From assembly GCA_030536575.1 (NCBI GenBank), contig JAUNPS010000005.1, positions 1 to 64,000 of the forward strand: DNA of 64,000 nt. Reading direction: 5' to 3'. Positions 47,788 through 51,507 of this stretch are shown here, piece after piece. The notes under the pieces were generated by a model. It had not been told where the DNA came from. It made no database searches and was given only the letters and a program-made list of their open reading frames with translations. Source of the DNA: Eubacteriales bacterium. GTDB taxonomy: Bacteria; Bacillota; Clostridia; Lachnospirales; Lachnospiraceae. The number at the start of each line of letters is the position of its first letter. Position 1 is the first letter of the stretch. A program made the translations under genes and the position numbers.

Positions 47788-48813
47788 TTAAATGGTATTT
47801 CCGGCAAATTCTTTCAGTGAAAAGCAGAGGGTTTTCCGAAGGGCGGGATCGTTCATGATCCGGACAAGCCCCCGGACGCCGCAGGATACCGGGTCCTGAA
47901 CATTGTAGACCGGGATTTCCAGTTCGCTCTGCATGGACCAGGCCAGCCCCGGAATCTGGGAAACGCCCCCGGTCAGGTAAATGCCGGCCTTGCGGATATC
48001 GGCAAGGAGCTGGGGCGGCGTGCGCTCCAGCATCGTGTGGACGGCCTCCGTGATCTGCTCGATGGTTTCGAGGATCGCGACGCTGACCGACAGGGCGGAA
48101 ATCTCTTTCGCAGCGGGAAGGCCCGTCACCGTATGAATGCCGTAGATCTTCGCGGATTTTTCCGGAATCTGGCCAATGCTGGCCATGGTATTTTTCAATT
48201 CTTCGGCGGTTCGGCTTCCGATGTGAAGCTGGTACTGGCGGCGGACCATGCCGGCGATTTCCTCATCCAGCTTCTGGCCGCCCAGGCGCAGCACCCGGTT
48301 CAGGATGATTTTCCCTTCCGAGATCACGGAAATCTCGGTGTGGCCGCCCCCCAGGTTTACGATCATGTTCCCGGAGGGGTCGTCCATGGGCATCCCTAGG
48401 CCGGCCGCGTCGGCGATTCCTTTTTCGACCATCCAGATGCGTTTGGCGCCAAGGCCGCCGCTTAGGATCTTGTAGTAGGCACGCCGCTCCACCTGGGAGA
48501 TGTCCGAGGGGGCGGTGACGTACAGGTTCGGGTGCTTGGTAAAGAAAGTGGCGAATTTTTTCACCAGGTAGGCCAGGATCAGCTCCTGGTTTTTCCCTTC
48601 CGCAAGGGCGCCGTCCCGGACGGGGTAGCCTGCGTAGACGTCTGCGGGGGCTTTTTCGAAGATTTCCCAGGCCCTGTCCCCCAGGGCAATGACGTGGGTC
48701 TTCTGACGGATGGCTATGATGTTTTTTTCGCACAGATACTGCTTTTCGCGGTTGTCTGTGATCTTGATGGCGTCGCTTCCGAGGTCGACCCCGCAGGTTC
48801 TTTTCAGGGACAT
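47788..48813 (-). CDS. mreB: MreB-like rod shape actin homologue
   Basis: This 341-residue actin-fold ATPase directs cell-wall elongation. Phosphate-1 loop GVDLGSDAIKI, phosphate-2 region MIVNLGGGHTEISVIS and the adenosine motif GIYLTGGVSQIPGL are present. It is more divergent than typical MreB; GSDAIKI replaces the usual GTANT-type loop, and glutamates of the hinge are less obvious. It overlaps radC by 10 nt. Confidence 0.9.
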   Translation of the reverse strand: MSLKRTCGVDLGSDAIKITDNREKQYLCEKNIIAIRQKTHVIALGDRAWEIFEKAPADVYAGYPVRDGALAEGKNQELILAYLVKKFATFFTKHPNLYVTAPSDISQVERRAYYKILSGGLGAKRIWMVEKGIADAAGLGMPMDDPSGNMIVNLGGGHTEISVISEGKIILNRVLRLGGQKLDEEIAGMVRRQYQLHIGSRTAEELKNTMASIGQIPEKSAKIYGIHTVTGLPAAKEISALSVSVAILETIEQITEAVHTMLERTPPQLLADIRKAGIYLTGGVSQIPGLAWSMQSELEIPVYNVQDPVSCGVRGLVRIMNDPALRKTLCFSLKEFAGNTI

Positions 48814-49499
48814 AAAATTTTTTCCTCTCTCATACTGACATAGGTGTGGTCGCCCAGGATCACGTGATCCATCAGGTGGATGCCGATCAGTTCTCCGGCC
48901 TGGGCGACGCGTCTGGTCAGCCAGATGTCATCCTGGCTGGGCGTGGGGTCGCCGCTTGGGTGGTTATGTACGAGAACGATGGTGACGGCCTGGTAGTGCA
49001 GGGCTTCCAGGAAGATTTCCCTGGGGGAAATCAGGGAGCCGGAAACGGTTCCTTTGGATATTACTTTTTCGCCCAGGAGCTTGCAGCGGGTGTTCAGCAT
49101 CATCAGGACGATCTGTTCCTGGCCGCTGTGACGGAAATCTTCCATATAGTAGTCGGCGATGGTGGACGGGTGCTCGAAGCGAAGGCCGTCCGCGTGGGTG
49201 GCTTTCGCGATTCGCCTGGAGAGTTCCAGGATGCACTGGATCTGGATCGCTTTTACTTTTCCGATGCCATGGATTTTCATCAGATCGTTTACGGTAAGGT
49301 GATGAAGGCCCAGCAGGCCTTTGGGGGCTGCGGAGGCGTTCAGGACAGATTTGGACAGGTCCAGGGCGGAGATGCCCTGGGCGCCGGTTCTTAGGATAAC
49401 CGCCAGAAGTTCTGCGTCTGTGAGTGCCTGGGTGCCGAATCGCAGAGTTTTTTCGTATGGTTTTTCATCTTGAGGTAGTTGTTTCATGGTTTTTGGCAT
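48804..49499 (-). CDS. radC: RadC-family JAB-domain protein
   Basis: This 231-residue protein combines a helix-hairpin-helix region (about 50-90: LMKIHGIGKVKAIQI) with a JAB metalloprotease-like fold. The metal motif is HNHPSGDPTPSQDD near residue 180. RadC proteins are not proven repair factors. The start is uncertain: I chose ATG at 49499, with GGGAGAGGG about 11 nt upstream; ATG at 49541 or 49556 would add residues that are not conserved in my memory of the family. It lies just beyond the HEARO-like element. Confidence 0.88.
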   Translation of the reverse strand: MPKTMKQLPQDEKPYEKTLRFGTQALTDAELLAVILRTGAQGISALDLSKSVLNASAAPKGLLGLHHLTVNDLMKIHGIGKVKAIQIQCILELSRRIAKATHADGLRFEHPSTIADYYMEDFRHSGQEQIVLMMLNTRCKLLGEKVISKGTVSGSLISPREIFLEALHYQAVTIVLVHNHPSGDPTPSQDDIWLTRRVAQAGELIGIHLMDHVILGDHTYVSMREEKILCP

Positions 49500-49604
49500 A
49501 CGCGTTTGGGCCCTCTCCCGGACTTCAAATGGAATGCTCATGGTAGTAAGTTTCATTTTAGCATACATTTAAAATAATGTATACACTTTGAATCTTAATT
49601 TTTT

Positions 49605-49911
49605 GTTATCCTCGGTGGGGTGTTTCTGTTCACACATCGCCAGCTCGTTCTCGTTTTTAACCGCTAAAGCATAACCGGACGTCACCGTGCCGTCGAAAAC
49701 CTTCCGGGGAACGGGGCAACGTCATCGTCAAACTTCCCCTAACTGCGACTAAGCCACTCAGGAGAGCCTTCGTGGCTAAGTCTTAGTAAGGGGCGATTTC
49801 GACTCTTCCTAGAACCGCCCCTCGAAACACGTCCCCGGAAGATTTCCGACTTCACGGTAACTGTATATAGACGACTGGTAAGTGCAGAAAGGCTGGCGCT
49901 GTTGTGAACGT
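49605..49911 (-). ncRNA. ORF-less HEARO / omega-RNA-like structured element
   Basis: About 307 nt with extensive base pairing and no plausible gene. On the - strand the outer arms are gttcacaacagcgccagc (49909-49892) and gctggcgatgtgtgaac (49644-49628). A second long-range stem pairs cttccggggacg (49841-49830) with cgttccccggaag (49713-49701). Inside, a 22-nt-arm hairpin lies at 49736-49757 / 49772-49793, next to a ggggcg/cgcccc stem (49816-49821 / 49790-49795). The first base follows a GTGA (49915-49912). These features fit the HEARO class of mobile RNAs, the omega RNA of IscB/IsrB elements, as I remember it; no iscB-like gene is in the window. Alternative: an unrelated long MITE. Confidence 0.65.
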
Positions 49912-51507
49912 TCACCTGGAACCGCACGGCGTGAAGCGGCGGATCAGGGCCTCGGCGGTTTTGATGCCGTCCATGGCGGCGGAGGTGATTCCTCCGGCGT
50001 AGCCTGCGCCTTCGCCGCAGGGGTAGAGGCCGCCGATGCTGCTCTCCATGCGGTCGTTTCGCAGGATGCGCACCGGGGAGGAGGTGCGGCTTTCGACGCC
50101 GGAGAGGAGGGCGTCGGGGCGGTCGAAGCCTTTGATGGTCTGGCCGCAGTCCAGGATGCCTTCCTGGAGGGAGCGGGCAAGGGGTTCGGGGAAGCAGGCG
50201 CGCACGTCGGAGAGCTCCCAGAGCCCGCAGATCTGCGGTTCGACGCTGCCAAGTGTCTGGCTCTTGACTCCATTGCAGAAATCGGAAAGAAGCTGGACGG
50301 GAACTTTACCTTGCGCGGCCTGAAAGGCCATGGTTTCCAGCTTCCGCTGAAATTCCATGCCGGCCAGGACGTGTTCGGAGCCAAAGTCGGCGGGCGTCAC
50401 GGTGACGACCATGGCGCTGTTGGCATTTTTCCCGCCGCGGTCATGAAAGCTCATGCCGTTGACGGCCAGACGGCCTTCTTCCGAGGACGCATTGACCACA
50501 TAGCCGCCCGGACACATGCAGAAAGAATAGACGCCGCGGCCATTCTTCAGGTTCCTGGTCAGTTTATAGTCGGCCGCCGGAAGCAGGCTGCCGCGGGGCT
50601 GTCCATACTGGGAAAGGTCGATCATCTCCTGGGGATGCTCGATCCGCACGCCCACCGCGAAGGACTTCTGCTCCATTGGAACCAGCTTTTCGGAAAGCAT
50701 CCGGAAGGTATCCCTGGCGCTGTGGCCGATTGCCAGCACCAGTACCCGGCATTCCATGCGCTCCCTGCCGTTTAACTCGATTTCCGACACGGCCCCATCT
50801 TTCAGAAAAAGATCCGTCATCTGCGTTCCAAACCGGATTTCCCCGCCGAGGGAACAAATCTCCTCACGGATATGCACCACTACATTTTTTAAGATATCCG
50901 TTCCGATATGCGGCTTATTCAGATAGAGGATTTCCTCCGGTGCACCCGCCTCCACAAAGCCTTTCAGCACATAAAAATTTCTTCCGGATACGTCTTTCAC
51001 AGCCGTATTCAGCTTCCCGTCCGAAAACGTCCCTGCCCCGCCCTCTCCGAACTGGACGTTGGAGGAAGGATCCAAAACGCCTGTTTTCCAGAAAGCATCG
51101 ACTTTCTGCTGGCGCGTCTGAACATCTTCTCCACGTTCAAGCAGAATGGGACGGTATCCCATCCGTGCCAGAACCAGCCCGCAGAAAAGCCCCGCAGGCC
51201 CGGTTCCGACGATCACCGGCCGGGTTCCCATCTCTTCCGTTCCGGGTTTGGGGTATTCATAAGTCTTGGGGGAAGCCAGGGAAACCCCCGGTTTTTGCTT
51301 CTTTAAAACGGCGCTCTGTTTTGCGGTTTTGACGTCGATCACATAACTGTAAAATAGCCTGGGCTTTTTTCGGGCATCCAGGGACTTTTTCCGGATTTCA
51401 TAAGAAATCAGCCAGTCCTCCGGGATCGAAAGAGCCTTTAAAATCGCCTGCCGCATGTCCTGTTCCGTATGGTCACAAGGAAGCTTTAACTGCTGAATTC
51501 GAATCAT
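49912..51507 (-). CDS. FAD-dependent dehydrogenase (COG2509-like)
   Basis: This 531-residue flavoprotein has an N-terminal extra domain (1-90) and a dinucleotide-binding motif VIVGTGPAGLFCGLVLARMG near residue 98. VQFGEGGAGTFSDGKLNT lies near 150 and the closing LYPCGEGAGYAGGITSAAMDG near 495. This pattern fits the uncharacterised COG2509 family of FAD-dependent dehydrogenases. The substrate is unknown. It overlaps the second flavoprotein gene by 4 nt. Its TGA stop is part of the GTGA to which the HEARO-like element is joined, so the insertion did not shorten the protein. Confidence 0.88.
   Translation of the reverse strand: MIRIQQLKLPCDHTEQDMRQAILKALSIPEDWLISYEIRKKSLDARKKPRLFYSYVIDVKTAKQSAVLKKQKPGVSLASPKTYEYPKPGTEEMGTRPVIVGTGPAGLFCGLVLARMGYRPILLERGEDVQTRQQKVDAFWKTGVLDPSSNVQFGEGGAGTFSDGKLNTAVKDVSGRNFYVLKGFVEAGAPEEILYLNKPHIGTDILKNVVVHIREEICSLGGEIRFGTQMTDLFLKDGAVSEIELNGRERMECRVLVLAIGHSARDTFRMLSEKLVPMEQKSFAVGVRIEHPQEMIDLSQYGQPRGSLLPAADYKLTRNLKNGRGVYSFCMCPGGYVVNASSEEGRLAVNGMSFHDRGGKNANSAMVVTVTPADFGSEHVLAGMEFQRKLETMAFQAAQGKVPVQLLSDFCNGVKSQTLGSVEPQICGLWELSDVRACFPEPLARSLQEGILDCGQTIKGFDRPDALLSGVESRTSSPVRILRNDRMESSIGGLYPCGEGAGYAGGITSAAMDGIKTAEALIRRFTPCGSR

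Follow-up and report, generated by a model that had tools for sequence, protein, structure and literature searches.

The gene-free region on the minus strand of the window (the whole 64,000-nucleotide stretch of DNA analysed here) is occupied by a complete mobile element of 294 bp without an open reading frame. We think it probable that this element is a non-autonomous MITE with a conserved RNA fold on that strand, its ends being moved in trans and its RNA being contained in transcripts that run through it. Terminal repeats, target duplications and an empty site establish insertion and mobility, compensatory change and strand-specific use of G-U pairs establish that the fold is maintained, and hairpin modules have been gained or lost at fixed sites within it. 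The element apparently represents a new family, closest in kind to BOX and bcr1, from whose descriptions and hosts it differs, and it has no Rfam match.

Table 1. Features of the element and its surroundings, in window coordinates
Feature	Position	Strand	Basis
Whole mobile element, 294 bp	49622..49915	-	Alignment with other copies
5' terminal inverted repeat, diverged, GTGAACGTTCACAA; common form GTTACAGTTCACAC	49902..49915	-	Copy alignment
3' terminal inverted repeat, GTGTGAACAGAAAC	49622..49635	-	Copy alignment
RNA core, 189 nt, 57 covariation-tested pairs	49675..49863	-	226.8 bits; antisense 53.2 bits at the same place
Apical hairpin serving as search pattern	49746..49782	-	1 match in window; 0 in 100 shuffles
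Module A site (49 nt in longer copies), empty here	49810..49811	-	Alignment
Module B site (about 41 nt in longer copies), empty here	49777..49778	-	Alignment
Module C site (43 nt in longer copies), empty here	49729..49730	-	Alignment
Flavoprotein TGA stop, inside the 5' end of the element	49912..49914	-	ORF and comparison with G002
Flavoprotein gene, 3' end rewritten by the insert	49912..51507	-	Comparison with G002
AT-rich DNA past the element, resembling the uninterrupted G002 junction	49571..49621	.	Likeness judged by eye

The element sits between the flavoprotein gene and a radC-like gene (48804-49568, minus strand), with 49605-49621 lying outside it as flanking DNA. The original prediction of a stretch of about 300 nt that lacks genes and contains nested long-range stems was borne out by folding: the minus strand of 49605-49915 has a folding energy of -134 kcal/mol where shuffles average -96.4 (z -6.4), the plus strand has a z of -5.7, and the 189-nt core by itself reaches -8.1. 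The TGA preceded by G is indeed the flavoprotein stop, as had been proposed. It falls within the 5' end of the element, which reads GTGAAC here and mostly begins GTTAC in the common form (terminal inverted repeats GTTAC[A/T]GTTCACAC ... GTGTGAAC[A/T]GTAAC). GTGA is thus a mutated element end and not, as had been supposed, an insertion target; among the 25 copies with both ends found, L001 alone starts with it. Because GTGA is element sequence, the insert itself provides the stop codon, and the window flavoprotein ends in ...AEALIRRFTPCGSR*. A 5' guide drawn from the 3' end of the flavoprotein gene, also part of that prediction, is unsupported by these data.

With the region as query, the genome that carries the window (4.81 Mb, 100 contigs) yielded 44 match pieces, the picture of a dispersed repeat, and the covariance model of the core gave 59 matches, which by our count are 44 sense places and 15 antisense echoes. 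The copies examined were 40 loci and then six longer ones, and many carry terminal inverted repeats (GTTACWGTTCAC) together with 8-bp target duplications. Both ends were located in 25 of the 40 copies, the other 15 being left out of the duplication test. Flanking octamers agree at 7-8 of 8 positions in 11 of these 25 (11/24 without L040, whose row in the test is invalid), at fewer than seven in 14, and at six or more in 12, against a mean of 0.76 and a maximum of 5 for the same threshold in 1000 shuffles. L009 reaches 8/8 after a shift of one base, and L264, outside the 25-copy set, has GTCGAAAA on both flanks. The window copy has no target duplication (1/8 flank bases match), suggesting that the insertion is old or that its flanks have been altered.

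An empty site in a relative, as the original prediction had suggested looking for, exists in the same-genus genome G002. There the flavoprotein ends ...AEALIESI*, and AT-rich DNA similar to that past the element in the window comes next, without an insert, ahead of a radC-like frame (both judged by eye); G001, where the downstream neighbourhood differs, is uninformative. Copies with terminal inverted repeats, the 8-bp duplications and the empty site together indicate movement like that of a MITE, and the element combines terminal inverted repeats, many copies and target site duplications (the last absent in the window copy) with the lack of a transposase gene. The predicted insertion of an ORF-less structured RNA with further copies therefore stands, with 44 sense places and an empty site in G002; the dispersed-repeat nature and inverted terminal repeats had been overlooked.

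The identity given to that RNA does not stand. HEARO/omega RNAs are dispersed, ORF-less structured RNAs of 200-300 nt, and an orphan copy from an IscB/IsrB element would agree with a window element that is ORF-less, dispersed and structured and adjoins GTGA. Against this, the Rfam scan for HEARO that had been suggested returned nothing at the gathering score over the window or up to E 10 at the region, and HEARO was also absent from six longer copies and from a further scan including L142. Across Rfam no family reached its gathering score, and sub-threshold matches lay far below the family cut-offs; a Hsp83_3_UTR match overlapping the element in L142 (25.3 bits against a cut-off of 90, E 0.0025) is taken as chance. 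PF14239 (RRXRR), which we take to be linked to IscB, was found in 0/5 genomes searched and also in 0/14 control genomes. To our knowledge, IscB/IsrB elements have neither terminal inverted repeats nor target duplications. Having both, lacking an Rfam match and differing in its ends, of which GTGA is one, the element is not a HEARO/omega RNA; that reading is refuted as far as the Rfam model reaches, and we give it almost no credence.

The consensus of 29 short-form cores (189 nt) contains 57 pairs, with which the minimum-energy fold of the window core concurs, and 99.0% of cells are paired. Both sides change in 17 of the 57 pairs and in 70 cells, where shuffles average 8.6 and 20.1; 0 of 500 shuffles reach the observed values, and slid controls give at most 2 pairs and 16 cells. 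In 103 matches from the 96 loci searched, 94.4% of cells pair, two-sided changes occur in 54/57 pairs and 1692 cells, and the covariation score is 0.721 (0.179 in shuffles), the alignment having been fitted to the covariance model and hence being biased towards pairing. Left out of it were 26 of 129 matches, which we read as 23 antisense echoes and three partial sense matches (L075, L101, L108). The element thus has the conserved RNA fold with compensatory change of BOX/bcr1-type repeats. G-U outnumbers A-C in all three parts (basal stem 37:11, upper stem 24:11, core 183:38), a bias in favour of selection acting on a single strand, be it as RNA or as folded DNA.

In longer copies, one to three hairpin modules occupy the fixed sites listed in Table 1. 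Of 42 copies with a complete core, 29 have none, two have A (L025, L034), one has C (L021), five have A+B (L030, L032, L037, L039, L267), one has B+C (L266) and four have all three (L262-L265). Pairing between modules A and B is conceivable through TTCACCGGAA/TTCCGGTGAA. Outside this genome, near the apical-hairpin match at 6059 in L108, an inserted hairpin (CTGCCACTGGCAG) resembles module C by eye, and the modules may therefore predate the genus.

The basal stem changes quickly but remains complementary. Its arms have a median length of 26 bp and a longest of 98 bp (113 of 117 hits, the other four having short flanks; automatic local alignment, in which some values are chance), and the long near-perfect arms contain only 2.4% G-U. 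Among paralogues the arms differ strongly: stem identity is 0.77, 0.54 and 0.35 at core identities of 0.95, 0.85 and 0.75, and core and stem stand at 0.72 and 0.38 in G044 paralogues and at 0.70 and 0.41 in those of G075. At one locus common to three species (L051, L215, L216; blocks 82-94% identical) both arms have been rewritten in concert. Fast divergence and concerted change of the arms indicate that the sequence of the stem is largely free and that its complementarity is kept, which may be due to selection or to arm-to-arm correction of the DNA. The unrelated-looking stems of paralogues had raised the idea of wholesale stem replacement at each insertion, which is weakened, though not fully dismissed, by the smooth fall of stem identity with core identity and by the concerted rewriting of orthologous arms. 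Counting against this argument, the stem of L103/L163 is nearly unchanged (element 94.8% identical) while the flanks have fallen to 77%. In orthologous pairs generally, compared without a formal test, conservation of the element exceeds that of its flanks in 6/7 and equals it in one.

By DNA similarity the element is confined to its own genome among 41 searched. The covariance model extends it to 4 of 145 relatives (the own genome, G044, G075 and G078), of one family and four different genera; the congeners G001 and G002 have no match to the model, and in the genus of G075 the element occurs in 3/6 genomes. G044, with 17 matches, corresponds to isolate STE_209, a 'Lachnospiraceae bacterium' (identity is 100% between L046 and L112 over 1671 bases and between L071 and L110 over 1747), and the own genome falls in the same family. 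A degenerate apical-hairpin pattern matched at least 113 stretches in named genomes, the 80 titles among the matches listed being Lachnospiraceae, Dorea, Blautia, Eubacterium or unresolved Clostridia; searching genome contigs for an exact 21-base string gave 0 matches. We rejected a phage or plasmid origin, the pattern having 0 matches in viral contigs and plasmids and phages giving no blastn match. A search for an associated gene around 117 motif hits yielded none that recurs beyond common transporter-like families, and in the open-licence PMC literature we found no report of the element.

The core is also not tied to one kind of end. Isolate S27M_St_58 carries it within a 206-207-bp element with GATGTCGGGGTCAAAA ends; by eye and without a shuffle control, the 7-bp flanks of elements of this type agree exactly in L081, L097, L104 and L151 and at 6/7 positions in L080, and are unmatched in the same register in L183. 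Ends of the kinds GTTAC.., GATGTCGGGG.. and GGGGTCCCCGG.. are all represented among carriers of this core. In the window's own genome, L026 and L033 have variant terminal repeats, and L016, L019, L023, L027 and L038 contain the core without recognisable ones (all by eye); these last are unaccounted for by MITE ends.

Blautia schinkii DSM 10518 has 135 model matches (110 full length and 25 partial by our count; 150 candidates scored), several at contig ends. Pairs less than 1500 nt apart are divergent in 33/33 cases (minus then plus, gaps of 180-1071 nt) and include 66 of the 135 matches, and all eight close pairs in the 96-locus set (L073, L094, L096, L099, L136, L140, L144, L145) are likewise divergent. 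The middles of 20 fetched pairs (L240-L259), 92-981 bp long, are mutually dissimilar at E 1e-4, with short look-alike stretches at their inner ends by eye, and the outer ends resemble GGGGTCCCCGGAAAGGTGTTGAACGGT. Outer target duplications are not above chance: in the 18 of 20 pairs that gave ends, the mean shared stretch is 6.06, against a shuffle mean of 5.67 and maximum of 6.61. One middle carries a DUF6442 gene and a helix-turn-helix gene; copying of such cargo from elsewhere in the genome was tried on this one of the 20, and it has no second full copy there, only a 33-base match.

The near-perfect arms with their 2.4% G-U, and 3' ends that frequently read CGTCC, can also be seen as a palindrome at the DNA level, which would act as folded single-stranded DNA or a cruciform in transposition or replication, as in REP/REPIN, leaving the RNA without a role. 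We regard this as rather unlikely. REP/REPIN sequences are mobilised by the RAYT tyrosine transposase without target duplication, and tyrosine (Y1) transposition is not known to make any, unlike the 8-bp and 7-bp duplications found here. The complex apical domain, the conserved internal loops and the modules also speak against such a palindrome, and the preference for G-U over A-C excludes strand-neutral models only, not a folded single DNA strand. The consistently divergent Blautia pairs nevertheless resemble REP dimers (PMC3733652).

Conservation of the element above its flanks, the presence of one core in elements with differing ends, and its retention at one locus in three species (L051, L215, L216) would suit a multi-copy RNA acting in trans with a host function, such as binding a dedicated protein, and carried by any available transposon; the patchy occurrence (4/145 relatives, none in G001 or G002, half of the genomes in the G075 genus) and the lack of a recurrent neighbour gene make this a doubtful proposition. 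We are similarly sceptical that gene-capturing units have their ends marked by the RNA or its folded DNA, the window copy then being a solo end. The uniform divergence of close pairs in Blautia and elsewhere, the unlike middles and the middle with two genes invite this thought, but target duplications of the Blautia units do not exceed shuffles, the single middle tested leaves capture putative, and the element of the window's own genome moves as a single core. A version in which the folded RNA belongs to a mobility or cargo-capture system, with outward-reading Blautia pairs bounding units and the RNA or single-stranded DNA marking, guiding or processing their ends, appears improbable to about the same degree; if true, it would make these a new kind of gene-capturing mobile unit.

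Under the MITE reading that we prefer, the terminal inverted repeats would be acted on in trans by a transposase, probably a DDE enzyme, whose insertions are flanked by 8-bp target duplications. The interior RNA would be read on the window's minus strand, most likely within transcripts running through the element, and may act in cis, shielding or processing 3' ends or reducing read-through and thereby making insertions tolerable, a role suggested for BOX and similar repeats. In the own genome, 17/36 copies have, on both sides, genes that share the element's sense (four copies at contig ends were excluded here and from one of the comparisons that placed the element's ends), which fits read-through; in the wider set 24 ++ and 30 -- placements of 117 give no own-sense bias, which argues against a strict role in co-transcription. 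IS66 was considered as the mobiliser and set aside: its two matches in the own genome are a degenerate copy and a fragment, so that no autonomous partner was found among IS66, and L041 was scanned for the element's ends. The degenerate IS66-type element (L041:1462-3414) has GTAAGCG, not GTTAC, upstream of its first frame. Abundant in the own genome is another MITE family, 142 bp long, with the same GTTACTGTTCA end and 8-bp duplications, and the shared end pattern (both families, at most one mismatch) has 204 matches in this genome against 12 for the reversed pattern. Its loci L220-L229 (e.g., L220:47-188) have ends GTTACTGTTCACTC/GTTACTGTTCAGAC, with CACTGACC as an example of the duplication.

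Among known systems the likeness is greatest to BOX of Streptococcus pneumoniae, which has 125 copies in ATCC 700669, terminal repeats, target duplications, optional middle modules, a tight RNA fold and no transposase of its own (PMC3049150). BOX belongs to another host family and appears to differ in sequence and fold; the present element keeps a large covarying core with a basal stem nearly free in sequence, its core rides elements with different ends, and its divergent pairs enclose unrelated DNA. In the Bacillus cereus group, bcr1 and its kindred repeats are likewise MITE-like and dispersed, and are partly transcribed in UTRs and operons (PMC3446304), whereas the present fold recurs in several genera of another family and within elements whose ends differ. 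REP/REPIN sequences, including CGTC-tagged REPs, share dispersed palindromes, inverted pairs and a CGTC-type motif at one end; REPs are 20-40 bp long, often in inverted pairs, and have no complex apical domain (PMC3733652), in contrast to an element that has terminal inverted repeats, duplicates 8 or 7 bp of its target and bears its tag at the opposite end relative to the RNA strand. With a size of about 200-430 bp and its target duplications, the element falls outside REP/REPIN.

A strongly covarying RNA with dozens to more than 100 matches per genome in some Lachnospiraceae, a major gut family, and no Rfam family represents a considerable blind spot. With it, one can test why conserved RNA folds travel on mobile repeats, how long inverted arms diverge fast in sequence without losing complementarity, and whether cargo can be captured by ends that an RNA marks. 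Assembly is affected too, with several contigs of Blautia schinkii ending in or near a copy, and insertions can rewrite gene ends, as with the window flavoprotein.

Two further observations concern the surroundings of individual copies. L133:1-160 and L139:7400-7700 represent an orthologous place (flanks about 93-95% alike) with the core in opposite orientation, as if it had been inverted in place with the loss of one arm. By eye, a terminal motif (e.g., CTGCGTCC, or GGCGTCC with a short spacer) is tandemly repeated just outside L103, L023, L038, L059, L078, L086 and L111.
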